From a virus: 37,525 nt of DNA. Below are positions 17,775 through 37,012 of the stretch, piece by piece. Made by a program: the position numbers and the translations under genes. Location: the IMG/VR virus record IMGVR_UViG_3300025809_000050, positions 1 to 37,525 of that record, one strand, 5' to 3'. Position 1 is the first letter of the stretch, and every line of letters begins with the position of its first letter. Below the pieces are notes generated by a model that ran no database searches, was not told the origin of the DNA, and was given only the letters and a program-made list of their open reading frames with translations.

Positions 17775-20700
17775 ATGGCAGAGTCTAAAAACAGTTTCAT
17801 ACAATCTAAAATGAACAAAGACTTGGACGAAAGATTAATTCCAAGTAACGTTTACAGAGACGCTTTAAACGTAGCGGTATCTAGGTCAGAAGGTGGTGAT
17901 GTAGGTTCGTTAGAATCCATATTAGGTAACAAAGAAATATACAATGGAGGAACTCATGCTGATTTAGAAATTATTGGAAAAATTGTAGATGAAGTAAATT
18001 CTGTAATTTATTTTTTTAAAACAAATTATACTCAAACTGCAGATGTTTTACCTGGCGATGCTACTGCTTGGATAATGACTATAGAAAGATTTAGTATTGC
18101 TTCTGGATCTTCAAGTATATTAGTTCAAGGTAATTTTTTAAATTTTTCTACACAAAACTATATATATGGTGTTAACTTAGTTGAAGATCTTTTATTTTGG
18201 ACTGATAATAGAAACGCACCTAGAAAAATAAACATAACACAATCTTTAGGGTATTACACTAATGAAGACCAAATATCTGTTTGTAAGTTTTCACCTTATA
18301 AAGCCGCTGAACTAATAAATTTAAGATCTACTTTAACTACTAGCGCGGCTACACATCCTTCTACAATGACTGACGCTGAGGATTTACCTACTGTTTTAAT
18401 TGGTGTTAATGAAATTAGTTCAGTAAATCTAGCGGTAACTAGATATAGAAATGGGGATATTATAGAAAACGCTACAACAAATTCAGCTTGGGCTCTAGCA
18501 AACACAAATCAAACAGGAGCATGGTGCTACTATAATAACGATTTAGGTAACGGTGTTACGTATGGTGTTTTGTATAATAAATGGGCGGTTTTAGATCCTA
18601 GAGGTTTAGCACCTGTTGGATATACTGTATTATCAAAAGCGCAATGGACATCAAGTTTAACATCTGTGTCAAGCACAAGCGCAACACCTTTTGTTGGCGC
18701 GGGTGTTGTTTTAAAATCAGAAGAGTTATGGGAAACGTCAGCAACCGCAAATCAAGGTCAAAATACTAAAGGTTTTAATTCTTTACCAGCTGGAGAAAGA
18801 GTAGCATCAGGTACTTTTTTCCAAGAAATAACACAAACAACTAGCTATTGGACTAGTGATGCTGGTGATGATAGTTTTGTTCAAATGGTTTATAATTCTC
18901 CTAACGCTACAATAGAAGCAGCACCAGGTTCAAATCCAAAATTAGCAGGTAGATCAGTTAGATGTGTTAAAAACGCTAACTATAATGGCTGGAATGGAGA
19001 CCCTGAGTACTTAAAAGATAAATTTGTTAAATTTAGTTATAGATTTAAATTTGATGACAATGAATATTCAACAGCAGCTCCTTTTAGCCAAGATGTATTT
19101 ATACCCCAACAACAAGGTCAATTTGTAAACGATAATGAAAATCAAGCATTTATAACTACTGTTGTAGAATTTATGCAAAATTCTATTAACAATGCTGTAT
19201 TAAACATTGAGCTACCTACAATTGATATTTTTAATGAATATAAAATAAAAGGAATTGACATATTATTTAAAGAGTCTGATGCTCAGGCTTATTCAGTAAT
19301 AGAAAGCGTTGTTGTAGATCAAGCCTTTGTAGATAATTTAAACAACACAAATATTTATCAATACGCTTATCAATCAACTTTACCAATAAAAACTTTAACT
19401 TTAGATCAAACCACTAGAGTTTTTGATAAAGTACCTGTTAGAGCATTGGCTCAAGAAACTAGTGGTAATAGAGTGATGTATAGTAATTTTGCGCAAGGAA
19501 ATGGAGCGCCTATAGGTTTAAATTACTTTATAGATACTACTGAAAAAACTATACAGGAATATATACAATATCCACAACATTCAATAAAAGAAAACAGAAA
19601 CTACCAAGTAGGTTTAGTTTTAGCAGATAAATACGGAAGACAAACTGATATAATATTATCTAACTATGATGATCTTAAAGACGCTTTAGGAAACCCTGTG
19701 CCTGGTTCTAACGTGTTTTTAAATTATAAAGCGTTATCTTTTGCTGACGATATAAGAGATTGGATGGGAGATAATTTAAGATTAAATTTTAATTCTCCAG
19801 GTATACCTGAAGCAGCTGATTCTCCAAATGTAAATGCAGGTTATCCAGGCGTGTATGCTTTAGGAAATTATTACACAGTAAACATAACAACTGCACCAAT
19901 AGCTGCGTTACCTTATTTTTGGGATTATAGTAATCAGGTTATAGTTGCTACTACTACAAATCTAACAATGCTATTTACAAATATTGTTTTTGTAGATACT
20001 TCGCCAGCTGTTAATACTTACGAGCTTTATAAAAACACAGGATCAGGTTGGATAAAATTAACTAAAACAGTAGACTATTCTATAAGCGACGCAACAGGAG
20101 ATGATGACGTTACTGTTACATTTACAACTGGGGCTAGACCTGTTATTGGTGAGGCTTACAAGTTTACATTAAGATACACTGCTGAAAACTATAATAAATA
20201 CCAGTTAGGTAATGTAACTGCAAGTGCAAATCCTTTATTTCCTAATTTTGCTACTACTTATCAAGATTACTTTGCTATTGGTAAAGAGTTAAGAGGTTTG
20301 TATTGTGACTATACTAAAATAGAGGCTGTTACACCTATGTTTAATCCTGTTAGAGCTCTTTCATTTTTTACAAAAAAACAAATTGCTGACAGTTATTTAT
20401 TTGATAACAGCGGAACTACTAATCCTACTAGAACAGAAAAAACCTTAACAGCAGATACTACATTTGCTACTTATGATATAAACCCTAAAGGTTTCTATAG
20501 TTATAAAATAGGTATAAAACAATTGCAACAAGATTATTATAATGTATACTTACCTGGGTTTGTAAATGGATATCCTATAAATGATAATGATTTAGAGCGT
20601 GGTGAAACAGCATTTACAACACTAATATCTGATAATATAAATAAAATACCTAGAAACTTAGAAGACGTAGGTCCTTTACAAGATCAATTCACTAGTGATG

Positions 20701-22727
20701 AAAAAATATGGCCTAGAGTTATAAATACATTGCAAGTAGAAGACACTGGCACTACGCCTACTAGCTATGTTTATAATAGACAGTTTTACCCTTCATCAAG
20801 TCCTGATACTGCAGATTTAATTGGCACTGTTAAAGATGTTTTTCCTGAGGTTGTTTTTAGCGTTCCTCCAGCAGCGCCTACAAATAGTGAATACAATACT
20901 TTTACATTGTATGATCCTGAAACAAAACCTTATATTGCTCAATTTTCTACTCAATCCGCACTAGGTGTTAAAGAAGAAGATTTTACAGCCCCAGGAGCTG
21001 GAACAAGTAATGTTCCTTATCCAGCGGGTATGTCCTTAGCTGTTTGTGAAACAACACCTGTTGTAGTTCCGTTTGAAATATTTTACGAATCATCAACTAG
21101 TGATTTAATATCAGACTTAAACAATGCTATACAAGGTGAAAATACTGAAATAAACGGCATGACTACTCCTGTAGTAGATTTTGAAGAAAACAATCCTTCA
21201 GGTTCGTACATAACTTCTAATATTTTTCCAACTATTAATGGCACTCCTTACACCGGAGCAACAGGTAATTTAATATCAGTATTTAATTATCCACCAGATG
21301 CTAGCTTTACAGGTCCTGCTTCTAGTCCTAACACAACAAACTTTGCAGCTAGTGGCGCTAATCAAAGATTTTCATTTGATTCTTTAGCAACTGGTAGTAT
21401 AGCTATTAAAACAACAGATACGTTTTATGCTGGAGCAAATGGAGTAGGTACTGATTCAGGTGATCAACTAGGTAGTAGTTATGCTGGCAGATTTTTATGC
21501 ACTATAGCTTGGACAGATGGCGGTACAGTAATTAATCAAACTTTAACTTTAGAATTAGTTAATAATAGTCCTGTAATTTATACTACTGGAGTAGTTCAAA
21601 CCTCTTTTAATTCTAATACTTCTTTTATATTTGGAGCACAAGGAGTTATTGGTGGCGTAGGTGTGCAAAATGTTTCGCCTACAGCCATAAACGGAAGCGC
21701 AAGAAATACAAATAATTTAACTTTTGGAAATTGGGGGCAATATACTTTAGGTACTAGTCGTGGTGGAGCTAATCAATGCTGGAGTATTGTTTCATTAATA
21801 GAAACTTTAAATGGAGTAGCTACAACATATACTAATTCTTCTGATATTAATGATCGTTTTACTATACCTTTAACTGCTTTAACAGGTGTAAGTGGCGCTG
21901 CTAATAGAGCTTGTGGGTTTAACATGAAAGTAACTAACAACAATACACATCCTTTAGTCGCTGGTACAACATATGATTTTGTATTTAGAAATGCAGACAC
22001 TTCTGGTTTAACAGTAGATACAAACTTTAGTTTTACAGTACCTCAAAATAGTTATTCTGGATCAGTGGTTAGTACCGCTTATACTTCAGGCGTTGGAAAT
22101 GGTTCATCATTGTCTACATCTTTAGTAGGCACTTCTGCAGCACCATTACCATCATGGACAGGTCAGTTACAAAACTGGAGAAGCAGTGATTTAGTTTATT
22201 TGTGGGTAAGATTAAAAACATTTGGACCTACAGATCAAGCGTTTCAGGTAAAAGTAAATAACATAAATTCTAGCATCGCTAGACAAGGAGAGTTTCCTTC
22301 TACTCCAACTAATTCAAGCCCAAGTGTTACTGTAACTTTAGGCTCACAAAGTGGCCCTGGAGCAACTGAAACTTTTACAGCTACTAATCAATCTTTAGCT
22401 GCTTTTAATGCAACTACCACACAAATAGGTAATCAAATATGTCCTGGTATGGTAAACAGTAGCACAACACCTGCTTATGACTTTAGACAATGTGCTTTAG
22501 TTAATTTACAATTAGAAATAACACAAGCTCCTTACGCTAACCCAACTGGTGGTCAAACATGGGAGGCAGAACTAATGTATAGTCTTGCGGCTGGCGCTGG
22601 ATCAACAAAATATTCATTACCTTACGTAGCAGGTACTATACCTCCTTTTTATAGTAATGCATCAGGAGGATCACAAGGTTCGCAAATAGCTCCAACATTT
22701 ACACCTATACCAACAGGACCAAATTAA
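17775..22727 (+). CDS. Large tail (muzzle-like) protein with a FISUMP insert
   Basis: This 1650-residue tail protein begins NSFIQSKMNKDLDERLIPSN with NVYRDALNVAVSRSEGGDVG, a block I recall from muzzle/stabilisation proteins of crAss-like phages. Residues about 246-403 form a FISUMP-type domain: WCYYNND, YGVLYNKWAVLDPRGLAP, KAQW, GFNSLPAGERV, YWTSD, GRSVRCVKN. The core resumes with FVKFSYRFKFDDNEYSTAAP and ENRNYQVGLVLADKYGRQTD. A typical FEIFYESSTSDLISDLN block lies near 1100-1116. The last ~530 residues are Ser/Thr/Gly/Asn-rich beta repeats and probably face outward. The protein should form the distal tail and contact the host. The expected downstream part of the muzzle (ending in the next gene) appears to be a separate polypeptide. 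Confidence 0.8.
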   Translation: MAESKNSFIQSKMNKDLDERLIPSNVYRDALNVAVSRSEGGDVGSLESILGNKEIYNGGTHADLEIIGKIVDEVNSVIYFFKTNYTQTADVLPGDATAWIMTIERFSIASGSSSILVQGNFLNFSTQNYIYGVNLVEDLLFWTDNRNAPRKINITQSLGYYTNEDQISVCKFSPYKAAELINLRSTLTTSAATHPSTMTDAEDLPTVLIGVNEISSVNLAVTRYRNGDIIENATTNSAWALANTNQTGAWCYYNNDLGNGVTYGVLYNKWAVLDPRGLAPVGYTVLSKAQWTSSLTSVSSTSATPFVGAGVVLKSEELWETSATANQGQNTKGFNSLPAGERVASGTFFQEITQTTSYWTSDAGDDSFVQMVYNSPNATIEAAPGSNPKLAGRSVRCVKNANYNGWNGDPEYLKDKFVKFSYRFKFDDNEYSTAAPFSQDVFIPQQQGQFVNDNENQAFITTVVEFMQNSINNAVLNIELPTIDIFNEYKIKGIDILFKESDAQAYSVIESVVVDQAFVDNLNNTNIYQYAYQSTLPIKTLTLDQTTRVFDKVPVRALAQETSGNRVMYSNFAQGNGAPIGLNYFIDTTEKTIQEYIQYPQHSIKENRNYQVGLVLADKYGRQTDIILSNYDDLKDALGNPVPGSNVFLNYKALSFADDIRDWMGDNLRLNFNSPGIPEAADSPNVNAGYPGVYALGNYYTVNITTAPIAALPYFWDYSNQVIVATTTNLTMLFTNIVFVDTSPAVNTYELYKNTGSGWIKLTKTVDYSISDATGDDDVTVTFTTGARPVIGEAYKFTLRYTAENYNKYQLGNVTASANPLFPNFATTYQDYFAIGKELRGLYCDYTKIEAVTPMFNPVRALSFFTKKQIADSYLFDNSGTTNPTRTEKTLTADTTFATYDINPKGFYSYKIGIKQLQQDYYNVYLPGFVNGYPINDNDLERGETAFTTLISDNINKIPRNLEDVGPLQDQFTSDEKIWPRVINTLQVEDTGTTPTSYVYNRQFYPSSSPDTADLIGTVKDVFPEVVFSVPPAAPTNSEYNTFTLYDPETKPYIAQFSTQSALGVKEEDFTAPGAGTSNVPYPAGMSLAVCETTPVVVPFEIFYESSTSDLISDLNNAIQGENTEINGMTTPVVDFEENNPSGSYITSNIFPTINGTPYTGATGNLISVFNYPPDASFTGPASSPNTTNFAASGANQRFSFDSLATGSIAIKTTDTFYAGANGVGTDSGDQLGSSYAGRFLCTIAWTDGGTVINQTLTLELVNNSPVIYTTGVVQTSFNSNTSFIFGAQGVIGGVGVQNVSPTAINGSARNTNNLTFGNWGQYTLGTSRGGANQCWSIVSLIETLNGVATTYTNSSDINDRFTIPLTALTGVSGAANRACGFNMKVTNNNTHPLVAGTTYDFVFRNADTSGLTVDTNFSFTVPQNSYSGSVVSTAYTSGVGNGSSLSTSLVGTSAAPLPSWTGQLQNWRSSDLVYLWVRLKTFGPTDQAFQVKVNNINSSIARQGEFPSTPTNSSPSVTVTLGSQSGPGATETFTATNQSLAAFNATTTQIGNQICPGMVNSSTTPAYDFRQCALVNLQLEITQAPYANPTGGQTWEAELMYSLAAGAGSTKYSLPYVAGTIPPFYSNASGGSQGSQIAPTFTPIPTGPN
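18515..18980 (+). other. FISUMP-type domain inside the tail protein
   Basis: The stretch encodes the ordered marks of the Fibrobacter succinogenes major paralogous domain: a WCYYNND start, YGVLYNKWAV, DPRGLAPVGYTV, KAQW, a LKSEELW turn, GFNSLPAGERVASGTF, YWTSD and a GRSVRCVKN end. This domain is common in surface lipoproteins of Bacteroidota. Its presence in a phage tail protein suggests acquisition for host-surface contact. Confidence 0.8.
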
Positions 22728-22759: not shown

Positions 22760-24031
22760 ATGGCTGCAATAATTCCTATAAAATACTATAACACGTACGT
22801 TTTGAAAAAAATAGCTCCTGTAACTACTGATGATTATGATTGGTTTGTAGAAGAGTCTAGGATAAGAGGTGGGTATAACAACGTTCAAACAGGTTTATCT
22901 CCTCGTGCTTTTTTAAAATCAGAAAATAACGCTAGTGAAACTTTAGGTAATTCTATTATTTACTCTGGTGTTATAAATTCTAGAACTGGCATAAATCAAA
23001 CTAATCAATTTCCTTCTGGAGAAGATATTACAAGAACTGTTGACCCATCAAAAGGTAGCATACAAAAACTATACGCTGAAGATACTAATTTAATTATATT
23101 TCAAGAGCGTAAAGTAAACAGAGCCCTTATAGATAAAGACGCTATATACACGCAAGAAGGTCAACCAGTACAAACAGCTTCTAACGTTGTAATTGGCGCT
23201 ATTATTGCTTATGCAGGAGAATTTGGTATAAGTCAAAATCCAGAAAGCTTTGCTGTGTATGGATATAGAAAATATTTTACAGATAAAGACAAAGGATCTG
23301 TACTTAGATTATCACAAGATGGTCTTACTGAAATATCTAATTATGGAATGTATGACTTTTTTAGAGATCAGTTTTTAGATTTAGATAGTGGAAAAGCTGT
23401 TGGAGGCTGGGATATACATAACAAATGTTATACGTTAGCTTTAAATCCTGCTTCTACAAACTTTGCATCTCAAACTTTAAGTTTTGACGAAGGTGTTAAA
23501 GGTTGGACGAGTAGATATAGTTATACACCTACAAATATGTTTAGCGTGCAAAATAATTTCTTTTCTACAAACAGTGGTAATATATATCAACATTATTCAA
23601 CCGCCGTAAATAGAGCTAATTTTTATGGTGTCCAATATATATCAAGTGTAGAAACTATATTTAACACAAACCCTTCTTTAGTAAAAAGTTTTAAAACTAT
23701 AAATTATGAAGGCGCTGGAAATTGGACAATGGCTAAATTAAATACAAACGAAGATAGAGCCAATGTAATTACTCCTTTTGTAATGCCTACAACTTTAGCT
23801 CAAATGCAAACAGGTTTACTTAAAAATGAATTTAAACAAAAAGAAGACAAATACTTTGCTAATTTAATAAACGCTTCTGCGTTTGAACAAGGCGAGGTTG
23901 TGTATGGTAAATCTATATCAGGAGTTAAAGGGTTTTTTGCTACAGTAGAGATGACAGCAACAAATACAGCTACGTCAGGTACTAATGAATTATTTGCAGT
24001 ATCTTTAGAATATAACGAATCATCATATTAA
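22760..24031 (+). CDS. Second tail (muzzle C-terminal-like) protein
   Basis: This 423-residue protein lies 32 bases after the large tail gene. It contains LYAEDTNLIIFQERKVNRAL, then QNPESFAVYGYRKYFTDKDK and GSVLRLSQDGLTEISNYGMY. In crAss-like muzzle proteins I recall these blocks near the C-terminal end of one long chain. Here they are a separate gene, so the muzzle is probably built from two polypeptides. The C-terminal third is helical and charged, then beta-rich (FFATVEMTATNTATSGTNEL). There is no signal peptide. The leader is A-rich with no Shine-Dalgarno site. It could equally be a tail tubular B-like protein of T7 type, since it sits just before a gp13-like gene. Confidence 0.75.
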   Translation: MAAIIPIKYYNTYVLKKIAPVTTDDYDWFVEESRIRGGYNNVQTGLSPRAFLKSENNASETLGNSIIYSGVINSRTGINQTNQFPSGEDITRTVDPSKGSIQKLYAEDTNLIIFQERKVNRALIDKDAIYTQEGQPVQTASNVVIGAIIAYAGEFGISQNPESFAVYGYRKYFTDKDKGSVLRLSQDGLTEISNYGMYDFFRDQFLDLDSGKAVGGWDIHNKCYTLALNPASTNFASQTLSFDEGVKGWTSRYSYTPTNMFSVQNNFFSTNSGNIYQHYSTAVNRANFYGVQYISSVETIFNTNPSLVKSFKTINYEGAGNWTMAKLNTNEDRANVITPFVMPTTLAQMQTGLLKNEFKQKEDKYFANLINASAFEQGEVVYGKSISGVKGFFATVEMTATNTATSGTNELFAVSLEYNESSY

Positions 24032-24439: not shown

Positions 24440-25192
24440 ATGGGAGTAATGACAGCAGTCGCTGCAGCCGGTGTAATATCAGGAGCTGTAACAGCAGGTG
24501 GGGCAAAAAGGCAAGCTAAAAACGCAGCAAACGCGGCTAGGCTAGCTAGAAACGAAATGAATGCTATTAAAAACGCAAGACAAGCTATAACAAACCCTTA
24601 CGCGGGCGTGACTAATCTTTCTAACTTAGGTAAAGACTTAAGTGGTATGATGAGTAATCCATATAGTAATTTAGGTGTAGCAACTCAAGCTGCTGAAATA
24701 AAAATAGAACAATCTAATTTAGCTTTGTCAAACGCTTTAGACACTTTAGCAACTACTGGTGCTAGTGCTGGTGGCGCCACGGCTTTAGCTCAAGCAGCTT
24801 TAGCTAGTAAAAAAGGCGTAGCAGCTAGCATAGAAGCTCAAGAAGCACAAAACCAAAAACTAAGAGCTCAAGGTGAACAACAACTAGAACAAGTAAGAAT
24901 GAGTGAAGCTCAAAGATTACAAGGTTTACAAATATCAGAAGGTCAAAGAGTACAAGCAGCAACCGCGGCTGGTGAACAATACATGATGGGGTTAAGAGAG
25001 CAAAGAACTAATAGTGACTTAAACAGAGCTGCTGGTCAAGAGCAAAACGCATTACAACAACAATATGCTTCGGAAGCAGCCGCAACATCAGCATGGGGCG
25101 GAGCTATATCTGGAGCTGTATCAGGTATTACAAGTATTGGTTTAGCTAATATGGAAAACGACTTAACATTTTTTGGCAAAACGCCAGGATAA
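24440..25192 (+). CDS. Internal virion protein, T7 gp14-like
   Basis: This 250-residue Ala/Gln-rich protein has a hydrophobic Ala/Gly/Val N-terminus (VAAAGVISGAVTAGG), a long amphipathic helical middle (residues ~25-200) with many Ala, Glu and Gln, and a second small-residue hydrophobic segment near the C-terminus (GGAISGAVSGITSIGLANM). This is the architecture of T7 gp14-like internal virion proteins, which are ejected first and form a channel across the outer membrane. Its place between a gp13-like gene and two larger proteins matches T7 gene order. The start may be MGVM at 24440 or the in-frame ATG at 24449. The assignment is structural and positional, not by sequence identity. Confidence 0.7.
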   Translation: MGVMTAVAAAGVISGAVTAGGAKRQAKNAANAARLARNEMNAIKNARQAITNPYAGVTNLSNLGKDLSGMMSNPYSNLGVATQAAEIKIEQSNLALSNALDTLATTGASAGGATALAQAALASKKGVAASIEAQEAQNQKLRAQGEQQLEQVRMSEAQRLQGLQISEGQRVQAATAAGEQYMMGLREQRTNSDLNRAAGQEQNALQQQYASEAAATSAWGGAISGAVSGITSIGLANMENDLTFFGKTPG

Positions 25193-25204: not shown

Positions 25205-26899
25205 ATGGGAGCATACGATAATCCAAAAATGATAAACGATCCACGAGCAGCTGCTGCAGCTAACGTAGGAATGATGATCGGTAATACACTAGCTAATATT
25301 GGGAAACAATACTACGCTATGAGAGCTAATCAAGCAAAAAAAGTTGAAAAAATAGAAGAGTTTAATCAAAAAACTAGAAACTCTATTGCAATTAACAATG
25401 AAAATAGAGTTGTTAAATTTGGAGAAAAAATAAGAGAGCAAAATATAACAACCGACATGTGGGAAAGTGAAATGGCTTATCAAAGACAATTATTTGATGG
25501 TATAGGTGAGCAAGGAGACAAAGACTACGTAATGGGTGCTACTGAGGCTAATTTTTTATTATTAACAAATAAAAATATTACTAGAGATGAAAAAAAGCTT
25601 TACAATGAAATAAAAAATAAAGCAACTGATAATATTTCAAAAGTTCAAGGAACTGTAGAAACAGTAGGTTCTGAAATTGAAGTAATAAAAAATTATTACG
25701 AGAACGGAAACAATAACGATAATCTTGTTTGGAGAGGTTTTTTAGATGGTGATAAAATAGCAAGTCAATTTACTGGTCAAGCTTTAATAAGCAAACCAGT
25801 TCCAGGAGTTGAAACAAGTTATAAAAGAGACGGAAGTGGTCATGTTTTTACTCACACTGTTAGTAAAAATAATGATTTGTTAAAAGATATGGATTTAACA
25901 TCTAGTGATTTAGACGATATTGTAATTACTGAATCTGGTGATAATTATATTATAACACAAACTGTTGGTCAAGATTTTGATATTCTTACACCTGTAGCTG
26001 CTGAAACAGATGGAGAAAAAGCTGGTCAAGACTCTGGAGTTTTAAACAAAGATAATAATATAATAGCAGAAATACCTTTTAAATTTAGTCAAGTTAACAG
26101 AATTCAAACAGATGACAAAGGGAATAGACAAGATAATACTTCTATAATAGGTACTACTAGTAGTTTTTTTCCTCAAGGTTTTGTCGAAGATCAAGTTTCA
26201 ATGATAGCCAACTCAAAAGCAAGTGCAATTTCTAAGCAATCTAACGAGCAAATATCAGCTTATTTACAAAAAAGACATAAAGTTTTAATAAAAAATGAGT
26301 ATCCAGATTTTTTTGATTTAAAGAAAACAACTAAACAAGAACAAATTGACATTATCAAATCTTACGAAGCGCAGCAAATTATTCAAGACATAAGAGGAAC
26401 TGATAATAATTACAAACCTAGAAAAATTACAGACTCTGAAATAGATCAGTTGTATACTGCAAAAGACGAGGGATCGCCACAACTTGCTTATTTACCAAAA
26501 AGAGATAGCGAAGAATTTAAACAATGGAAACAAGAAATGCATTACTTTAAAGATGCTGAATCTAAACAAGGCACGTATTCAGCTGCTAATTTTAGTGATT
26601 GGGAGTTATATGATAAAAAATGGATTTTAGATCCTAATTATGGTAAAAACAATACTGAGTTTTATATACCTACCGCAGATCTACAAGATGATGAAAGCAA
26701 CAATATATCAGGAGCTGCAATAATTCAGAGTAATCCAGATCTTACAGAGAAAACTAGGATTGTTCAAACTGGTAAAAACGCGTGGATATTACAAAAAATG
26801 TTTAATGTTAGTGGTAACATTGTATATAGAGATGTACCTGGATCAAAACCTAGACCAAAAGAATTTTTTAAATCATATTTAGGACTTAAAACAAATTAA
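25205..26899 (+). CDS. Internal virion protein in the gp15 position
   Basis: This 564-residue soluble protein has an Ala-rich N-terminal helix (DPRAAAAANVGMMIGNTLAN) followed by a long charged helical region (KKVEKIEEFNQKTRNSIAIN). The middle (about 150-350) is a beta-rich domain with repeated Asp/Thr/Ser segments, and the C-terminal third is mixed, with aromatic clusters (FSDWELYDKKWILDPNYGKN). No catalytic motif is visible. It occupies the gp15 position in the T7-like order gp13-gp14-gp15-gp16 and is preceded by an aaaatATG leader. A role in the ejected internal core is inferred from position, and a tail structural role is not excluded. Confidence 0.6.
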   Translation: MGAYDNPKMINDPRAAAAANVGMMIGNTLANIGKQYYAMRANQAKKVEKIEEFNQKTRNSIAINNENRVVKFGEKIREQNITTDMWESEMAYQRQLFDGIGEQGDKDYVMGATEANFLLLTNKNITRDEKKLYNEIKNKATDNISKVQGTVETVGSEIEVIKNYYENGNNNDNLVWRGFLDGDKIASQFTGQALISKPVPGVETSYKRDGSGHVFTHTVSKNNDLLKDMDLTSSDLDDIVITESGDNYIITQTVGQDFDILTPVAAETDGEKAGQDSGVLNKDNNIIAEIPFKFSQVNRIQTDDKGNRQDNTSIIGTTSSFFPQGFVEDQVSMIANSKASAISKQSNEQISAYLQKRHKVLIKNEYPDFFDLKKTTKQEQIDIIKSYEAQQIIQDIRGTDNNYKPRKITDSEIDQLYTAKDEGSPQLAYLPKRDSEEFKQWKQEMHYFKDAESKQGTYSAANFSDWELYDKKWILDPNYGKNNTEFYIPTADLQDDESNNISGAAIIQSNPDLTEKTRIVQTGKNAWILQKMFNVSGNIVYRDVPGSKPRPKEFFKSYLGLKTN

Positions 26900-26902
26900 A
26901 TT

Positions 26903-29900
26903 ATGCCATACATACAACTAAGTGACCCAGATTTTCCTTTATCGGAAATGGATCTACAATTATTAGCGTCTCAACAAGAGCCTCCAGTTACAGTAGAAAA
27001 ATATATAGAAGAAAACAATATACAGTTTGTGGAAGGAGAAGAATTTGATAACAACGGTGTTGTTAAAAAAATAGAAGACATAGATAAAGAAGTTGACATT
27101 ATAGAAAATTTTCAACCGGGTGCTGCACAACCAAGTGCAACTGCAGTACCGACAAATCCGACTGCACTCGAGAATATAAATACGGAATTACTTGCGGAAG
27201 ATATTTCATTGGATTCTGTTATTCAAGATCAAAGACCTTTAGACTATGTAGATGTAGATGAAGCACAAGCTGAGTATGATGAGTTAGAAAAACAATATCC
27301 TAATCTAATGGATAGACGAAAGTGGTGGGGAGGAATAAATGACGATGTTTATATGGATGGTTATGCTGAAAGAGAAGCCGCTAGAGTTAAACTTGAAAAA
27401 GCTAATACTGCGTTAAGAAATAGTACTATAAATGTTAATATACCAGAAACTTTTATAGGTGATAATATAGAAAATATTCAAAAAGCTTTTGAAAATCCTA
27501 TAACTGGATTTGGTGATGTAGCTACTTTTCAGTCTAATGAAAATAAAGTTGGTGCACAAAATGAAAGCGTTTTAACAGCAACCTTAAACAATGGTGATGT
27601 TTTAGAATTACCTATGAATTACGAGTCTTTTTTTAGAGGTAGCGATAAACAAAAAAGAATTTTTGAGCAAAATTATCAAAAACTAAAAGATTATCAATTG
27701 TCTTTAATAAAAGCTAATGATATAGTTGATGTTGTTACAAATATTATTGATCCATCTCAGGTATCTTCATTAGTAGAAAGTGTTGATGAAGGTAATTTAT
27801 CTTTAACAGCTTTAAACAAACAATTAAAAGCTATTAACTACGAGGTAAAACCTATTTATGATAATGACAAAAGAATATTAGGGATTACAGATGATGATAC
27901 TGAATTAGAAAAACAACAAAAACAAATTGGAGCGGCTGTTAATAATGGTGAAAATAAAATTATAGGTTATCAACTACTAAAAAACGGTAGACCTTTTAAT
28001 CTTTTAAGCACGGCTAAGTTTGACAACACAACTCAATCATTTAATCCATTAGTTGAAAAAGAATCATTTAATTTAGACGCTGTTCAGACGTATCTTAGAA
28101 ATAATTTAACTACAGAAGAAACTAATATTGTAAAAGAAAGTCTAGTTAACACTTATAATGACTGGGTTCAAATACAGCAAGCTAAAAAAGTTGAACTTGA
28201 AAAGAAAATATCAAAAGACAATAATGCAGAAGTTGTTAGGCAATACATAAAAGATAAGACATTTGCTAAAAAAGTATCTGGATACTTAAAGTTATTAAAC
28301 CAAAGCAATAGCGAAGTTAATTTTAGTGAAGAAGAAATACTTCATATAGAAGCATATTTTAACAAAAGAACAAACTATGCTAACGATAAAGTTTTTAGAG
28401 ATAAAACATTACAATTAAATTCAAAGTACGTAAATCAATTAGAGTTTGTTCTTGATACAAGTCATTTAGAGCTAGCTACAAGCAACCCGTACGCTACAGT
28501 TGAAGAGAATTTAGCTTATTACTCTAATAAAGAAGGTTTAAAATATCCAGGTTTAATTGAAAAACTTCAAGCTTTAGACATAAAAGGTTTGGTTAAAAAC
28601 AGCCTAGTAGGTTCTGATGGTAATGGTGGTCTTAGAAGATCAATAATTGACAAAAGGTTTGATACTATGCATGGGTCTGCTATTAAAGAAATAGGTGACG
28701 ATGAGCAAACTATTATAGACACTGGAATGTTGTTAAGTAAAACTGAAAACGCTTTACAAGATAAATCATTAGTTTATAAAGCACAAAAATTAAAAGTAGC
28801 TTCAGAACTTTTAGAGAAAATTCCTAAGCTTGGAATAGTAGCTGTTGATGAAAAAGTAAAAAATATCAAAGGCATAGAGTATAACTTTCAAAATATAGAA
28901 GGACAAGGATCGTTTTATTCAATATCAGCTTCTGCAGATTTAAGTGATGAAGATCAAGCAAAATTTGATGAAGCTAGAGCAATGTTATTTAAAATTCAAA
29001 ATACATTGATAAATTTGCAAGAAGACAAAAAAGAAACAATAGATAATTTTAAAAACCAAATAGTAAATTTAAAATATAAAGAAACTCTTAACGAAAGTGA
29101 AAAAAACGAAAGAACTAAAGTTGAAATAAATTCTTTGCTTTCTACTATTAATGATGATACAGGAAAACAATACACATTAAAAGAAGCAACTGATTATATT
29201 AAAAAAAGAGATTCACAACAAATCAACATGTACGATGCTTTTGCTAAAGAGTATGGTACAGCTGAATTAATGGCTAAAGATTTTGGTGATGCCACATATG
29301 GTATTTTTCTTGCGCTACCAACATTAACTGGTTCACAATGGGCTATAGACGAGCAAGTAAGATTAAACCAAAAAAACGAAGTCTATATGACGATGGGTGA
29401 ATTAGGTGACGGATCAGGTAATAAAGGTTTGTTTGCTTTAAGAACTTTATCTCAACAGTTTCCTAATATTTTAATGGCCATAGGAACTGGATCTGTAGGT
29501 AATGCTTTGAAGCTTAGTGACGCAATGGTAAAAACTACTATTGCAACTACATTTGGAGTTACTTCAGGCGCAGATACTTACAGAAGACTAACAGTGCAAA
29601 CAGATTTAGTTGATCAAGCTAAGAAGCAACAGGTTTGGTTAAAAGGAGCTTATAAAGAAGGTTTGATAGATCAAAGCACTTACGCTAACGGCATGGCTGA
29701 TGCAGCGCAAACCATTGCTTTTAATAACATGAGTGATACTCAAATATTAGGAGCTTCTTTTATGACAGGTGTAGTAGAAGGTACTGTAACAAGATATATA
29801 GGTTCTGCTAATAATACTGTTAAAATACTTAAAGACGTTAGAGGTTACCCAACTATAAGCCAAACAGCATTAGCTAATAAAAACACTTTACTAGGTAAAT

Positions 29901-32900
29901 ATGGCTTATATGGAATGGAGTATGGTAAAAGAGTTGGAGGTGAACTTATTGAAGAATCTACTATATTGTTAGGTACTCAAGGTTTATCTGAGTTTGCTAT
30001 ATTAGATAGAGATTTTAATTTAGATCAATTAGATGACGTGTGGTTTTCTACTTTGTTAACAGCAGGTTTTTCTAATGGACCTAGTTTAGCTTACTCGGCT
30101 GTTGTAAATGTTAGTGTTTCGCAAGAAATGAAAAAACAAGCTAGCGAGCAATATAACAAAATTAAAATACTTAGAGAGTCTTTATTAAATGAAAATTTAA
30201 ACGATAGCGAAGTAAAAGCTATAAACAATGAAATACAAGAGCGAACTGAAGGTTTAGGTGAAATGAACGGTGAAGCTGCTGTTGATGCTCAAGCGTTAGG
30301 TGGTGACAAATTAAAAAAATTATTTCATTTTAAGCAAATAAAAGATGGTTTGTTAAGAAGAGCTGGTGTTGATGCTAACACAGACCCAAGTAAAATTAAT
30401 TACATTTTAGGTCAATACAAAAGAAGAAAACTTACAAGTGATGAAAAAAGTAATTTTGAAACAGAGTTAAGCTCAATTGAAAGCTCAATTAATGAAATTA
30501 GAAACAGTGACAAAAATTACGAGTCTGTAAAAGATATGCTTAATGACAATGATCCAACTTTTGGTATGTACGCTGCAACTGAAAAAAGATTAAAACAAAA
30601 TCCTACAGACCAATGGAAAAGAGCTAAAACTCCAAGACAAAAAATTGCTGCAGTTATTTCTTATTTAAACAGCGAAGTAACAAGTGAAAATACTGAAAAA
30701 GCTAGAAAAGACCCTAAGGTAGAAGAAAAATGGCAAGAGCAAGTTAAGATTTACACGTTGATGGGAATGCCAGTTCCTGATAAAGAAAAATGGTTGATAA
30801 ACGAAGGTAGATTATTGGGCAGACAAACTACTACAGCAATAACAGTTGCAACTGAATCATCACAAGCGGCAGATATTCTTAATGAAAAATCTTTAAATGA
30901 TTTAACTTTAATTCAAAAACCAGAAGGTTCGGATCTTTTAGTTGAACTAGAGTCAATGTATAAAAACAAAGAAATCACTGTTGTAGAATATGAAAATTTA
31001 AAAAATGAATTAAAAGCAAACCCTACGTCTGAAGGTTTTATTGTTAATAATAAATTTATTATAAACGCGGTTGGTGATATAAAAGAAAGAATTAAAGCAA
31101 ATGATTATAGAGCTTCAATAGTAGTTTTACATGAAATAAACCATGCACAAGATGATAGGTTTTTTGGAAACACTACAGATGGTTTATCCGCAAGAGGCAA
31201 AGACTATGCTGAAAATTTCAGAAAAGCTTTATTAGAATCCAGTAATGTAGATTTAAAAAGCATAGGCGATCAAGCTAGTAGTATTGTAAAACAATTATAT
31301 AATGAATTTAATAAAGACGGTACAATTAATGACACGTATCTTGACGAGTGGACAAAAGAAGCTCAGTCTCTTTTATTTGCTTTTGAAGGAGACTTACAAT
31401 TAGAAACTGCTGAACAAAGTTTTGGCACTTTAGATAATATTATAGACAAAGTTTTTGGTGGATCAAGGTATAATATAAACACTCCACAAAAAGCGCTAGC
31501 TTACGCTTTGGGTAGTAACGCTGCTGCTAGACAAGGAAAAATGAGTGAGTTTGTTAAAAGAGGTATAGAACTACAAAACAAAGGAGCTATAGTTGAAAAC
31601 CTAAGCACTAAAGCATCTAGAAGTTTAAACACTTTACAGACTATTAATAATAAAAATGCTAACGTAGAAAACTTTAAACCTATAACACAAGAGCAATTTG
31701 ATTCAACAATAAGTAAGGTTGCTAGTAGAACTTGGAGTAGATTTGGTAGACCTATACCTGAAAATATAAGAGAAAAATTTATTGGTAGTTTAAATGATAG
31801 AACTGGTAGAAAAAAATGGATAGCAGATGCTGAACAAATATTAAATACTATAGCTTTAAATTTTGACGCATCTAAAGCTACTTTTGGTAGTTACATAGCT
31901 AACACAGGTATGCAGCGAGCTAATTCATGGGCTAAAAATGAGTTTGGAATACCAAGTGTTTCACAAGGAACTAGAGTAGGTATTGAAAGCGAGCAAGTGC
32001 AAAGCAAAGCAGACGCAACTACTGATCTTAAATCAAGAGCAAAAAAAGAAAGCAAAGAGTCTATACCTTCTATAAAAGAAAATATTAAATTTAAAGACAA
32101 AAAATCTTTAGATAATAAAATTTTAAAAGGCGTAGCAAAAGAAGTTAAATATAAGTTACCTAAAATATCAGATAACAAAACGTTTAAAAGTAAGTCAAAC
32201 TTAATTCAAGCTATAACTAAAGGCTTGTTAACAACTACTGTCGATGGTAAAAACTTATATGCTCAAGTTATAGACGAAATGGGTGGTAGAAATAAAACTT
32301 TACCTACATACGAACAGTTTTTAAATGAAAACTATGAAACATTACTTTCTTCTGGTGGCTTAACTACTACGTATTTACTAAAAGCTTTTCCTCAAGCTGT
32401 TCAAAAATATGTCAACGGTATGGGTTGGGTTAATTATGATACTTGGAAAGGAAGAACAAAAGGCACAAAAGAAGGTCAAGTTGATTTTTATAGAACAGGA
32501 GATGGACCTTATCAAGGATCTACGTCTGGTATGCAAAAAACAAGACGTGTACCTAATATTAAAAACGTTATACCATTATCTCAGTTTAAAGGAAAATATA
32601 TTGACGGTATAAATAACAAAGTTAAAGTTGCTCCTACAGAAGCTTTAGCAAAACAACTACTTCAGGAAATTGGTATACAAACTTTTGCTGCAGAAATTAA
32701 TAAAGAAACTAGTTCTATAAAAGATACATTTGTTGAAAGACAACAATTACTAAATCAATTAGCTAATGTTTATAATTTAGAAGCTGAAGTAACTTTAGAA
32801 ACAGAAAGAAGAGGCATTAAAAACAGCTTAGCTTTGTTAGAGCCTAGTAAATTTGATTTATGGGAATCTAAGAAACAAACATTTTTTGATGAAATATTAA

Positions 32901-35900
32901 AAGCTAAAGATTACAAATCTAAAACTATATTAAATATTCACAAAGGAGTATATGGAACTGAGTTTGAAAACGAACATAAAGATATTGCATTACAGTTTAG
33001 CAAACTTTTAATACCTGTTGATAAAGCTGATGGAATAGTATTTAAAACAAACGATGAATTTGTTAACTATTTAGAAGACATAGTTCTTGCTGGTGATGTT
33101 AATCAAACTATAGTGCAATTTACAGGAGCTTCTATAGTGAACAGTGATGGCGTAACTGTACCTTATAGAATTTCTGAAATGACAAGAGACTTAAACTCTG
33201 TCAGTGAAGCTAGAGATTTTGTATCTAAAGTTTTTGTGCCTAAACTTATAAAATCTTTTGGAAAAGAAAAAGCGCTAGATATGTTAGTTGCCTACGCTGG
33301 AACTACTTTTAGTCAAGGCCAAACAAAATTTGGTTCTTTTGAATTTAAAAACGGAGGCTTACAAAGACACAATGACGCTAGTAATAGAACAGGTTTATTT
33401 GGCAAGCAAGATGTGGATATATTACAAAACTTAATCCAGCCTAATTTTAAAAATGTTAAAAGCATAGCTAATCAAACAATAACTTTTAACGATGGCACTA
33501 AGTCTAGAAAAATTGAAATAAACAGATCTGCAGACGTTCAACAATCTATGTTAGGTGATAAATTTAAATGGAACGAGTCTAAGACGGACGCTGCAATAGC
33601 GAAAGATTTTACAAAAAGTTTAATGGAATCTTTACCTAGCAAAGGCACTAATGATAATTTAACAGCTTTAATACTAGCTACTATAAATTCTAGTAGCAAT
33701 AGCGCTTTAAGGTTAGCTGCTCCTGTTTGGGGTAAATCTGCTACAATGCCGTACGATAAAATAAAAAGGCCTAGACTTGCTACAGCTAAAGATGTTAAAG
33801 ATAAAAAAGCTAAAAAAATTGGTGATAAAATGTACACCAAAAAAGGAAATTTAATGATGGAATCAAACTATAGGTTTGAGCACGCTGTTCCTGCTAGAGT
33901 TGTTTTATGGTATTTATATGATTCTTACGTAAATAAAAATAAGTCAATAGATTTAGATTTATTGTTTGATGATTATAGAGTTACTATTATACCTATAACA
34001 GAAATGGATGACGTTATAACTAAAACAGGATTTAGTTCTATAATGTTAGCTAGTTATAAACCAGGAGATCAAACATGGTGGAAAAGATATTTTAATAGAT
34101 TTACAAAAGGTAAAATACCTTACGCTTTAGAATCTTATGAAACTGGAGATAAAATTGGAGAAGACTTTCAAGCATATTATGATTCTAAAAACCCTGTTGT
34201 TTTTAAACCTAATTCTGGTGAACAAGTATTAAAAGACAACAACGCTAATGAGGCTATGAAAAAAGCTAGAAGCGCTAAATATTCTAAGAAAATTAAAAAA
34301 ATTAGAGTATTTGATTTTGATGACACGTTGGCAAAAAGCAATTCTAAAGTGTTATATACTATGCCTGATGGAACTAAAGGTAAGCTTTCAGCCACTGAAT
34401 TTGCAAGAGACGCGGCTAAAATGGAAAGACAAGGTGTTGAATGGAATTTTGAAGAATTTAACAAAGTTGTTGAGGGTAGAAAAGGACCTTTGTTTAATGT
34501 TGCTAAAACAATACAAGATCAAAGAGGTTCAGAAGATATATTTGTATTAACAGCTAGACCACAAGAAGCGGCCATACCTATACAGGAATTTTTAGCATCT
34601 ATTGGTTTAAATATACCATTAGCAAACATAACAGGTTTAGAAAACGGTAATCCTAAAGCAAAAGCAGACTGGATGGTTAATAAGTTTGCTGAAGGATATA
34701 ATGATTTTTATTTTACTGATGATGCTACAAAAAATGTAAAAGCAGTTAAAGAAGTATTAGATGTTTTAGACGTTAAATCTAAAGTACAAATAGCAAGAGC
34801 TAAGTTCTCTCAAAAACTAGACACAGAGTTTAATTTAATGCTAGAGCAAAATAAAGGTATTGATGCAAATAAAAGATATTCTCAAGTTGTAGCTCAAAGA
34901 CTAGGTAAAAACAAAAAACGTTGGAACTTTTTTATACCTCCATCAGCTGATGATTTTAGAGGTTTAACTATGTATATGTTTTCTGGCAAAGGTAAAAAAG
35001 GTGAAGCAGATATGGAATGGTTTAATAAAGCATTAATCAAACCTTACACACAAGGTGTTAATGCTATAGAAAAAGCAAGACAACAAGTGTCTAACGATTT
35101 TGCTGGATTAGTTAAAGGTTTTCCAAAAATTAAAAAATTATTAAGATCAAAAATAACAGATCAACAATATACTTATGATGAAGCAATTAGAGTATATTTA
35201 TGGGAAAAAGCAGGTTTTACAATTCCAGGTTTATCTAAAAGAGATCAAAACATGTTATCTAAAACTGTAAGAGAAGATGCTAATTTATCTTCTTTTGCAG
35301 AAGGTGTTTTAGCTGTTTCAAAAAAAGAAACATACGTTGAACCTTCAGAATTTTGGAGCGGAGGCACTATACTAAGTGATTTAAATAGTTTAACTACAAA
35401 AATAAATAGAAAAGAATTTATAGCAGAGTTTATTGAAAATGTAGATATTATTTTTAATGAAGATAATTTAAGAAAAATTGAAGCTAACTATGGCACTAGA
35501 GTTCGAGAGGCGCTTGTGGATTCTATTTATAGAATGAAAACTGGCGAAAACAAAACTTCTAAATCAAAAGACTCAGCTATTGTAAATAAATGGAATAATT
35601 GGGTTAATAACTCAATAGGCGCTATAATGTTTTTTAATAGAAAATCTGCACTGTTACAGTTAATATCAAATGTTAACTTTATAAATTGGTCAGATAATAA
35701 TCCTGCTATGGCTGCAGCAGCGTTTGCTAATCAACCGCAGTACTGGAAAGATGTTGTTAGATTATTTAATTCAGATAAACTAAAACAGCGTAGAGCTGGT
35801 TTAAAAAGTGACGTTAATGAGGCTGAGATTGCAGCAGCTGTTAAAGGTTCAAAAAACAAAATGCAAACCGCTATAAGTATATTATTAAAATATGGTTTTA

Positions 35901-37012
35901 CCCCTACTCAAATAGCAGATAGTCTTGCTATATCTACAGGTGGTGCAACTTTTTATAGAAATAGAATCAATACTTACAAAAAACAAGGTCTTACAGACGT
36001 TGAGGCTGAACAAAAAGCGTTTATTGATTTTAGTGAAGTTTCTGATGAATCTCAACAGTCTGCAGATCCTATGTTAATATCAAGTCAACAAGCTGGTGTT
36101 TTAGGTAGATTAATTTTAGCCTTTCAAAACACGCCAATGCAATATACTAGGCTTATGAAAAAAGCTGGTTTAGATTTAATAAACGGCAGAGGTGACGCAA
36201 AAACTAATATATCAAAAATAGTATATTACGGTTTTATTCAAAACTTAATATTTTCTACATTGCAAAACGCTTTGTTTGCAATGATACCAGGATTTAACGA
36301 AGACGATGAAGAAACTGAAGAAACTATGTCTGCACAACTTGATAGGAAAAAAACTAGAATAGCTAACGGTATGATTGATACTATACTTAGAGGTTCTGGC
36401 GTTGCTGGAGCGGCTATATCTACAATAAAAAATGCCTATATGAAATATATATCAGAAGAAGAAAAAGGATTTCTGGCAGATCATACTTATACTATATTAG
36501 AACTTGCTAATTTATCACCACCAATTGGGTCTAAGCTTAGAAAAGTATATAGTGGTATACAAACCAGTAAAAAGAAAAAAGATGTTATAGCAGAAAGAGG
36601 TTTTGATGTTACTATTGACGGCAAATTCAATTTAGGAGCTTCATACGAAGTTACAGGTGATCTTGTTTCAGGTGTTTTTAACTTACCTGTTGATAGATTA
36701 GTTGCAGAGATAAACGCTTTAACAGAAGCTTTAGATGATAGAAATACTAAGTGGCAAAGATTAGCTTTAGCTATGGGTTATAGAACTTGGGATGTTAATG
36801 CAAAAAACGAAGAGCATGATAGAATAAAGTCAGAAGGCAAAGCTAGAAGAAAAATAGAAGGTATAGAAAAAGGTAAAAAAACTAGAGCTGAAAACAAAAG
36901 AATAAAAGATTCAATATATAATTCTTTATCTCCAGCAGAAAAAGATAAGATAATGTTTGAAAAACTTGACGCAAATATAGAAAAAATGTTTAAAAAATTA
37001 GATGAAATTTAA
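26903..37012 (+). CDS. Giant 3369-aa multi-domain virion protein (gp16 position; HExxH and HAD domains)
   Basis: This is one intact frame of over 10 kb. The N-terminal ~120 residues are acidic and disordered, followed by a helical region to about 800. A Gly/Ala-rich hydrophobic stretch at about 830-1070 (FPNILMAIGTGSVGNALKL and similar) could enter a membrane. VVLHEINHAQD carries a zinc-protease motif, H1410-E-x-x-H1414. A helical domain near 1650-1680 reads NFDASKATFGSYIANTGMQR. A complete HAD phosphatase set follows: D2471-F-D2473-D-T, VLTARP with T2550, a Lys in NPKAKADW, and FTDDATKN with D2606/D2607. The C-terminal block (about 2900-3135) has SALLQLISNVNFINW, LAFQNTPMQYTRLM and a hydrophobic NLIFSTLQNALFAMIPG. 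Position after gp13/14/15-like genes suggests an ejected core protein. It is about 2.5 times the T7 gp16 length. No lytic transglycosylase or RNA polymerase motif was seen. Confidence 0.85.
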   Translation: MPYIQLSDPDFPLSEMDLQLLASQQEPPVTVEKYIEENNIQFVEGEEFDNNGVVKKIEDIDKEVDIIENFQPGAAQPSATAVPTNPTALENINTELLAEDISLDSVIQDQRPLDYVDVDEAQAEYDELEKQYPNLMDRRKWWGGINDDVYMDGYAEREAARVKLEKANTALRNSTINVNIPETFIGDNIENIQKAFENPITGFGDVATFQSNENKVGAQNESVLTATLNNGDVLELPMNYESFFRGSDKQKRIFEQNYQKLKDYQLSLIKANDIVDVVTNIIDPSQVSSLVESVDEGNLSLTALNKQLKAINYEVKPIYDNDKRILGITDDDTELEKQQKQIGAAVNNGENKIIGYQLLKNGRPFNLLSTAKFDNTTQSFNPLVEKESFNLDAVQTYLRNNLTTEETNIVKESLVNTYNDWVQIQQAKKVELEKKISKDNNAEVVRQYIKDKTFAKKVSGYLKLLNQSNSEVNFSEEEILHIEAYFNKRTNYANDKVFRDKTLQLNSKYVNQLEFVLDTSHLELATSNPYATVEENLAYYSNKEGLKYPGLIEKLQALDIKGLVKNSLVGSDGNGGLRRSIIDKRFDTMHGSAIKEIGDDEQTIIDTGMLLSKTENALQDKSLVYKAQKLKVASELLEKIPKLGIVAVDEKVKNIKGIEYNFQNIEGQGSFYSISASADLSDEDQAKFDEARAMLFKIQNTLINLQEDKKETIDNFKNQIVNLKYKETLNESEKNERTKVEINSLLSTINDDTGKQYTLKEATDYIKKRDSQQINMYDAFAKEYGTAELMAKDFGDATYGIFLALPTLTGSQWAIDEQVRLNQKNEVYMTMGELGDGSGNKGLFALRTLSQQFPNILMAIGTGSVGNALKLSDAMVKTTIATTFGVTSGADTYRRLTVQTDLVDQAKKQQVWLKGAYKEGLIDQSTYANGMADAAQTIAFNNMSDTQILGASFMTGVVEGTVTRYIGSANNTVKILKDVRGYPTISQTALANKNTLLGKYGLYGMEYGKRVGGELIEESTILLGTQGLSEFAILDRDFNLDQLDDVWFSTLLTAGFSNGPSLAYSAVVNVSVSQEMKKQASEQYNKIKILRESLLNENLNDSEVKAINNEIQERTEGLGEMNGEAAVDAQALGGDKLKKLFHFKQIKDGLLRRAGVDANTDPSKINYILGQYKRRKLTSDEKSNFETELSSIESSINEIRNSDKNYESVKDMLNDNDPTFGMYAATEKRLKQNPTDQWKRAKTPRQKIAAVISYLNSEVTSENTEKARKDPKVEEKWQEQVKIYTLMGMPVPDKEKWLINEGRLLGRQTTTAITVATESSQAADILNEKSLNDLTLIQKPEGSDLLVELESMYKNKEITVVEYENLKNELKANPTSEGFIVNNKFIINAVGDIKERIKANDYRASIVVLHEINHAQDDRFFGNTTDGLSARGKDYAENFRKALLESSNVDLKSIGDQASSIVKQLYNEFNKDGTINDTYLDEWTKEAQSLLFAFEGDLQLETAEQSFGTLDNIIDKVFGGSRYNINTPQKALAYALGSNAAARQGKMSEFVKRGIELQNKGAIVENLSTKASRSLNTLQTINNKNANVENFKPITQEQFDSTISKVASRTWSRFGRPIPENIREKFIGSLNDRTGRKKWIADAEQILNTIALNFDASKATFGSYIANTGMQRANSWAKNEFGIPSVSQGTRVGIESEQVQSKADATTDLKSRAKKESKESIPSIKENIKFKDKKSLDNKILKGVAKEVKYKLPKISDNKTFKSKSNLIQAITKGLLTTTVDGKNLYAQVIDEMGGRNKTLPTYEQFLNENYETLLSSGGLTTTYLLKAFPQAVQKYVNGMGWVNYDTWKGRTKGTKEGQVDFYRTGDGPYQGSTSGMQKTRRVPNIKNVIPLSQFKGKYIDGINNKVKVAPTEALAKQLLQEIGIQTFAAEINKETSSIKDTFVERQQLLNQLANVYNLEAEVTLETERRGIKNSLALLEPSKFDLWESKKQTFFDEILKAKDYKSKTILNIHKGVYGTEFENEHKDIALQFSKLLIPVDKADGIVFKTNDEFVNYLEDIVLAGDVNQTIVQFTGASIVNSDGVTVPYRISEMTRDLNSVSEARDFVSKVFVPKLIKSFGKEKALDMLVAYAGTTFSQGQTKFGSFEFKNGGLQRHNDASNRTGLFGKQDVDILQNLIQPNFKNVKSIANQTITFNDGTKSRKIEINRSADVQQSMLGDKFKWNESKTDAAIAKDFTKSLMESLPSKGTNDNLTALILATINSSSNSALRLAAPVWGKSATMPYDKIKRPRLATAKDVKDKKAKKIGDKMYTKKGNLMMESNYRFEHAVPARVVLWYLYDSYVNKNKSIDLDLLFDDYRVTIIPITEMDDVITKTGFSSIMLASYKPGDQTWWKRYFNRFTKGKIPYALESYETGDKIGEDFQAYYDSKNPVVFKPNSGEQVLKDNNANEAMKKARSAKYSKKIKKIRVFDFDDTLAKSNSKVLYTMPDGTKGKLSATEFARDAAKMERQGVEWNFEEFNKVVEGRKGPLFNVAKTIQDQRGSEDIFVLTARPQEAAIPIQEFLASIGLNIPLANITGLENGNPKAKADWMVNKFAEGYNDFYFTDDATKNVKAVKEVLDVLDVKSKVQIARAKFSQKLDTEFNLMLEQNKGIDANKRYSQVVAQRLGKNKKRWNFFIPPSADDFRGLTMYMFSGKGKKGEADMEWFNKALIKPYTQGVNAIEKARQQVSNDFAGLVKGFPKIKKLLRSKITDQQYTYDEAIRVYLWEKAGFTIPGLSKRDQNMLSKTVREDANLSSFAEGVLAVSKKETYVEPSEFWSGGTILSDLNSLTTKINRKEFIAEFIENVDIIFNEDNLRKIEANYGTRVREALVDSIYRMKTGENKTSKSKDSAIVNKWNNWVNNSIGAIMFFNRKSALLQLISNVNFINWSDNNPAMAAAAFANQPQYWKDVVRLFNSDKLKQRRAGLKSDVNEAEIAAAVKGSKNKMQTAISILLKYGFTPTQIADSLAISTGGATFYRNRINTYKKQGLTDVEAEQKAFIDFSEVSDESQQSADPMLISSQQAGVLGRLILAFQNTPMQYTRLMKKAGLDLINGRGDAKTNISKIVYYGFIQNLIFSTLQNALFAMIPGFNEDDEETEETMSAQLDRKKTRIANGMIDTILRGSGVAGAAISTIKNAYMKYISEEEKGFLADHTYTILELANLSPPIGSKLRKVYSGIQTSKKKKDVIAERGFDVTIDGKFNLGASYEVTGDLVSGVFNLPVDRLVAEINALTEALDDRNTKWQRLALAMGYRTWDVNAKNEEHDRIKSEGKARRKIEGIEKGKKTRAENKRIKDSIYNSLSPAEKDKIMFEKLDANIEKMFKKLDEI
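31106..31180 (+). other. HExxH zinc-protease motif within the giant protein
   Basis: These codons encode ASIVVLHEINHAQDDRFFGN, with the motif at residues 1410-1414 and a hydrophobic strand just before it, as in gluzincin and metzincin peptidases. A third ligand cannot be assigned with confidence. Many large phage polyvalent proteins carry such a domain, perhaps for self-processing or cleavage of host targets after entry. Confidence 0.6.
34298..34770 (+). other. HAD-family phosphatase domain within the giant protein
   Basis: All four HAD motifs appear in order in about 150 residues: DFDDTLA (motif I, nucleophile D2471 and acid D2473), VLTARP (motif II, T2550), NPKAKADW (motif III Lys) and FTDDATKN (motif IV, D2606/D2607). 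The cap region between motifs I and II is short and charged. Likely substrates are phosphomonoesters such as nucleotide or polynucleotide ends; this is inference. Confidence 0.8.

Follow-up and report, generated by a model that had tools for sequence, protein, structure and literature searches.

A giant cysteine-free protein in a Bacteroidota-type podovirus fragment carries a conserved zincin-like domain and an exchangeable enzyme slot

We have analyzed a linear viral fragment of metagenomic origin (IMG/VR record IMGVR_UViG_3300025809_000050), the whole 37,525 bases of which are referred to here as the window. Its terminase and portal have matches in phages of Flavobacterium, Cellulophaga, Maribacter and Tenacibaculum, and the host is a marine Bacteroidota-type bacterium. 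Toward the 3' end, genes are ordered tail, crassvirus-type muzzle domain, GNAT-like protein, 250-aa protein, 564-aa protein and a giant protein (Table 1). The muzzle domain occurs here in a virus whose terminase and portal resemble those of flavobacterial podoviruses, and the succession of muzzle, two ejection-type proteins and giant parallels gp44-gp47 of crAss001. Elsewhere, the window encodes GroEL with an adjoining GroES and a second GroES-like protein (409-2215 and 6442-7047), a 115-aa protein with an HEMEH motif of its own (LQTLTHEMEHVNQF; 4300-4647) and without a Pfam match, and a tail protein of 1650 aa (17775-22727) with a Fib_succ_major domain at residues 218-399 (E 1e-21).

The two proteins immediately upstream of the giant show weak to moderate similarity to gp99/gp100 of Cellulophaga phage phi38:1 and to gp072 of Tenacibaculum phage Gundel_1; E-values for these, as for the N1, N4 and MPTase-PolyVal/LPD38 comparisons below, come from very small sets and are to be weighed with the controls. 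A preliminary description of this DNA had placed them in a T7-like internal core module. Their position is right for such a module, but homology to T7 gp14/gp15 was undetectable in PHROG and profile searches, and neither protein matched a PHROG.

Table 1. Positions of the giant protein, its domains and motifs, and the genes 5' of it in the window
Feature	Position	Strand	Evidence
Tail protein with crassvirus muzzle C-terminal domain, 5' of ejection module	22760..24031	+	Pfam crAss_MUZ_C 2.3e-13
Small ejection-type protein, gp14-like position, 250 aa, 0 Cys	24440..25192	+	Gundel_1 gp072 9e-11, phi38:1 gp99 2e-5
Mid-size ejection-type protein, gp15-like position, 564 aa, 0 Cys	25205..26899	+	phi38:1 gp100 3e-5
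Giant ejection-type protein, 3369 aa, 0 Cys	26903..37012	+	Frame; relatives in same gene order
N1 domain, aa 775-1150, Gly/Ala-rich, helical	29225..30352	+	hmmsearch; also in giants of flavobacterial podoviruses
Zinc-peptidase (gluzincin/zincin-like) domain, aa ~1300-1580	30800..31642	+	AF2 model; 59/59 conservation
HEINH motif, aa 1410-1414	31130..31144	+	Sequence; 59/59 conservation
E1482, predicted third zinc ligand	31346..31348	+	59/59 invariant; A6 invariant column E713
HAD phosphatase domain (predicted), aa ~2455-2640, optional payload	34265..34822	+	DUF2608, PHROG 415, AF2 strands, motifs
HAD motif I, D2471-F-D2473	34313..34321	+	Sequence, alignment
HAD motif IV, D2606-D2607	34718..34723	+	Alignment
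C-terminal all-helical block, aa 2640-3369, family hallmark	34820..37009	+	536 IMG/VR stretches; all-alpha AF2 model

The giant is encoded, as had been described, by a single uninterrupted frame with an ATG start and no internal stop. An assembly or gene-fusion artefact would fit the linear, metagenomic nature of the window, but the same continuous architecture occurs on independent contigs, where two relatives share 83% (L003) and 51% (L002) identity with the giant over nearly its full length. Because relatives carry this architecture, the artefact reading is already refuted and we give it practically no credence. The two halves of the giant had no tblastn match among phage records at 1e-5, and a first scan for relatives returned six loci. 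The C-terminal block was then found in 536 related viral-contig stretches in IMG/VR, 80 of which formed the studied sample. Full-length giants among them are mostly about 2200 to 3400 aa long, and the gene order around them is the same in relatives and isolates. They share a chassis composed of the N1 domain, the zinc-peptidase domain and the helical C-terminus of ~730 aa. Relatives located on genome contigs belong to Bacteroidetes, Sphingobacteriales and Flavobacteriaceae MAGs and to one Aliivibrio MAG, a placement that may be a binning error. Two contigs binned as Aliivibrio (L191 and L193) encode relatives in which an HAD motif and a P-loop occur together.

The N1 domain links the giant to isolated phages. 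In hmmsearch against a small set it matched phi38:1 gp101 (4e-33), Flavobacterium phage elemo gp18 (3e-30), Gundel_1 gp074 (2.9e-30), phi19:3 gp129 (1.6e-23) and Panino (1.8e-15). Most N1-sharing proteins (phi38:1, phi19:3, elemo 6-9C, Gundel_1) are labelled virion or structural, these labels being database annotations. Similarity of N1 to the N-terminal domain of the N4 virion RNA polymerase (vRNAP) is weak (hhalign probability 45%, P 2e-4), and the N1 signal in crassvirus gp45 is very weak. The hydrophobic blocks previously thought able to cross membranes did not hold up, the highest 19-residue Kyte-Doolittle mean being 1.29, below the usual rule of thumb of ~1.6. N1, rich in Gly and Ala, could nevertheless interact with lipid.

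The HEINH motif noted at residue 1410 is present, and HExxH is expected by chance only 0.003 times per 3369 aa of this composition. The motif occurs in 60 of 62 non-redundant giants, the exceptions being L085, which is short, and L075, in which, alone among near-full-length relatives, the zinc motif has degenerated (EEIGH, aa ~910). In all 59 aligned non-redundant motif-bearing relatives, H1410, E1411, H1414 and E1482 are identical, and few other positions are fixed. Two multi-domain AF2 models were made, neither of them extending over residues 1740-2180; HExxH and E1482 fall in a zincin topology, one of the points on which the preliminary description had said that its claims would turn. The zincin region consists of a three-strand sheet, the HExxH helix (model residues 633-652) and then the E1482 helix (708-729), with local pLDDT roughly 70-90 and an overall value of 69. 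This topology is that of the polyvalent-protein peptidases described by Iyer et al. (PMC5512222). With HExxH and a glutamate in the following helix, the domain is predicted to be a zincin-like (gluzincin) fold with proteolytic activity. Compared with a profile of the N4-like C1 domain, it gave an hhalign probability of 85%, against at most 1.2% for unrelated domain pairs and at most 0.6% for reversed or shuffled controls; single-sequence comparison with N4 gave no signal, so that the similarity required a family profile. Peptidase family M91 (Pfam PF14891) was rejected at 18.3 bits against a curated cut-off of 25, as was MPTase-PolyVal (hhalign 3.5%, no sequence match).

The complete HAD motif set reported at residues 2471-2607 was likewise recovered, with D2471-F-D2473-D-T (motif I), T2550 (II), K2585/K2587 (III) and D2606-D2607 (IV). 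In the alignment, 34 of 34 rows with HAD keep D2471, D2473, T2550, K2587, D2606 and D2607. When excised, the domain matched Pfam DUF2608 over the cut-off (E 1.4e-6) and PHROG 415 (E 3.4e-7). D2471, T2550 and D2606/7 lie at or just past strands 287-292, 367-371 and 422-426 of the model (pLDDT about 75-89), and with motifs I-IV at the ends of these Rossmann-type strands the domain is modeled as a member of the HAD superfamily with predicted phosphatase activity. The previously noted combination of zinc protease and HAD does exist in this protein; across the family, what stays constant is the zinc peptidase, with HAD as an optional payload.

HAD usually begins about 160 residues ahead of the C-terminal block. 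Among 69 non-redundant relatives, the slot that it occupies contains HAD in 39, a kinase alone in nine and neither motif in 21. The kinases are of P-loop type (AAA_33 / Zeta_toxin, with E as low as about 3e-15). In three relatives, another domain is nested inside HAD, between motif I and the remainder: a kinase in L032 and ART-PolyVal-like inserts in L065 and L074, the latter two below the cut-off (E 0.005 and 0.014). L074 and L071 are near neighbors on the C-terminal tree and the insert is the difference between them; in all, this tree requires at least 10 payload changes. The HADs match PHROG 415 and the kinases PHROG 505, both of which are named 'polynucleotide kinase', and the similarity of the kinases to zeta toxin is about as strong as their polynucleotide kinase match. 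Neither a payload of HAD phosphatase type nor an HAD with a nested kinase or ART was found in Iyer et al. (PMC5512222), where the word 'phosphatase' does not occur, and no description of payload exchange or of HAD-nested inserts was found in the literature searched.

Cysteine is depleted throughout the module. The giant has none in 3369 aa, where 18.9 are expected (P 6e-9), and together with its two upstream neighbors it has none in 4183 aa (expected 23.4, P 7e-11). Sixty-four non-redundant giants contain 25 Cys in 180,405 aa. Their neighbors at positions -1 and -2 have 4 Cys in 29,153 aa and 0 in 14,668 aa, respectively, and genes at -3, -4 and downstream have 0.39, 0.72 and 0.92% Cys. Cysteine is also lacking in T7 gp15/gp16, P22 gp7/gp20/gp16 and N4 gp50/51/52; T7 gp14 has one, N4-like vRNAPs have 19 in 220,475 aa and crAss001 gp45-50 have seven in 7478 aa. 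The absence of Cys from N4-like vRNAPs has been published (PMC4837373, PMC3915230), and passage through the tail was offered as the reason (PMC3915230). Its absence from the giant is counted here as evidence for ejection. Known for N4-like polymerases, the rule appears broader here and offers a simple sequence test for proteins that pass the phage tail. The few relatives with Cys have it mostly in pairs or clusters (L095 aa 2178-2236; L078/L080 aa 10-336), which are possibly small metal sites.

Among known systems, the giant appears to resemble a phage polyvalent protein in its working and N4 vRNAP in its plan. Like polyvalent proteins (PMC5512222), it is a very long multidomain chain with an HEXXH zincin-like peptidase, a glutamate in the following helix and exchangeable enzymes; zeta-type kinases and ART domains are among the payloads of that class. 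The trait by which the class is recognized, several unrelated enzyme domains per chain, is seen in the zincin and HAD here and in the kinase and ART-like domains of relatives. Fold searches gave matches at E 1e-7 to 1e-4 to viral proteins labelled ART-PolyVal, MuF or 'large polyvalent protein associated', and further to the Gundel_1 structural protein, and the C-terminal block had fold-level matches to large polyvalent proteins. Unlike polyvalent proteins, the giant had no Pfam match to MPTase-PolyVal, LPD38 or another recognized polyvalent domain model. LPD38 was rejected for the C-terminal block (hhalign 0.1%), a weak comparison because the LPD38 set contained false coiled-coil matches. A PDB sequence search with three alignments gave no meaningful match. 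Foldseek of the two models against PDB gave helical decoys and nothing at E <= 0.001, with HAD folds (class C acid phosphatase 2i34, PH1952) and the Nir2 C-terminal domain among the weak entries.

N4 vRNAP (gp50, Schitoviridae; PMC12633501) is likewise a Cys-free protein of ~3500 aa and the largest of three ejection proteins, with an N-terminal lipid-binding domain, an HExxH-bearing C1 domain and a large helical C-terminus. It differs in that no polymerase was found in the giant, which has HAD, kinase or ART payloads in its family and a C-terminal block unrelated by profile; N4 C2 was rejected for this block at an hhalign probability of 0.4%. T7 gp16 is also the third and largest ejection protein of its module and has 0 Cys, but it is 1318 aa long with an annotated endolysin domain, and the giant had no significant profile match to T7 gp15/gp16. 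The giants of Pervagoviridae, Pachyviridae and Elemovirus (phi38:1 gp101, phi19:3 gp129, Gundel_1 gp074, elemo gp18) share the module order, N1 and the lack of Cys, and elemo gp18 and Gundel_1 gp074 also have HExxH. They differ in having no HAD and in the C-terminal block, which is partial in Gundel_1 and undetected in the others. Gundel_1 gp074, from an isolate (L194:10109-17557), combines N1, HExxH at 1337, the partial block and 0 Cys, and has a possible GNAT domain at 896-966. The crassvirus cargo proteins gp45-gp50 (PMC10172136) also lie 3' of the muzzle gene, are Cys-poor and are thought to be extruded partly unfolded; unlike the giant, three are RNA-polymerase-associated proteins.

We consider it probable that the giant is at once a polyvalent protein and the third member of a podovirus module for DNA ejection, and that it is ejected from the virion and follows the plan of N4 vRNAP, with changeable enzymes in place of the polymerase. 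The earlier proposal of an injected multi-enzyme protein at the gp16 place keeps its position, the N1-sharing structural proteins, the Cys absence, the N4 C1 similarity, the fold matches and the payload slot in its favor, and loses its membrane segments and T7 homology. In the order of events that we infer, the giant would be packaged in the head and threaded unfolded through the tail behind the gp14- and gp15-position proteins, and would refold at or inside the inner membrane. N1 probably anchors it at the inner-membrane end of the channel, as proposed for the N-terminal domain of N4 vRNAP; in the N4 model, this lipid-binding domain sits at the inner membrane and the remainder refolds in the cytoplasm (PMC12633501). 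The zinc peptidase would cut its own chain and so release the payload that lies downstream, or it would cut a host protein; the payload, here the HAD phosphatase, would then act early in infection on a phosphorylated substrate in the cytoplasm. Self-processing is uncertain because N4 vRNAP is packaged uncleaved (PMC5512222).

A related reading makes the zinc peptidase a head-maturation or self-processing protease that acts before or during packaging, so that fragments alone are injected. DdrB of phage P1 is cleaved before packaging with its MPTase as the proposed agent (PMC5512222), and the protease of the giant is located upstream of the payload; on the other hand, N4 vRNAP has a related zincin and is packaged intact (PMC5512222). 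The reading overlaps with the ejected polyvalent protein and differs mainly in timing, and we regard it as somewhat unlikely. If the giant were purely a structural internal-core or channel protein, its zincin and HAD folds would be non-catalytic relic scaffolds. Ejection proteins such as T7 gp16 are mainly channel parts, the accessible part of the N4 report gives only a motif for the zincin-like C1 (PMC12633501), and the EEIGH of L075 replaces HExxH. The four zinc-site residues are nevertheless invariant where few other positions are, the HAD catalytic residues are equally fixed, and the same slot holds kinases with intact P-loops, which makes a relic scaffold quite improbable. An N4-type virion RNA polymerase diverged past recognition would account for the similar size, gene position and Cys absence and for an order of N1 then HExxH that aligns with N4. 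Against it, sequence searches for T7-like single-subunit RNA polymerase gave no family match in the giant or in the middle regions of its relatives, profile comparison shows no similarity between the C-terminal block and N4 C2, and the slot is occupied by HAD, kinase or ART, so that we hold it to be very unlikely.

The proposed layout, an ejection chassis with a constant protease plus an enzyme that changes, would give a large family of virus proteins from the environment, mainly from aquatic sites and for the most part undescribed, an architecture that can be tested. It bears on what podoviruses do ahead of the expression of their first gene. T4-type polynucleotide kinase-phosphatase has an HAD phosphatase and a P-loop kinase as partner modules. 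Both modules likewise occur in the present family, but here HAD or kinase is usually alone and fused into a giant. More speculatively, one Cys-free chassis, made up of a membrane-end domain, the zinc protease and the helical tail, might be a general delivery vehicle. Its slot ahead of the C-terminal block would be reloaded with different enzymes for the cytoplasm (HAD phosphatase, P-loop kinase or ART), which its own protease would set free once inside the host. The versions with HAD and with kinase could be complementary halves of a polynucleotide end-healing system that reverses RNA or DNA cuts by host defences in the first minutes, a proposal we think unlikely as it stands. A Glu-His pair at aa 2326-2327 (33878-33883), in a mixed alpha/beta stretch ahead of HAD, is kept in at least 30 of 34 HAD-bearing relatives and could be another enzyme site.
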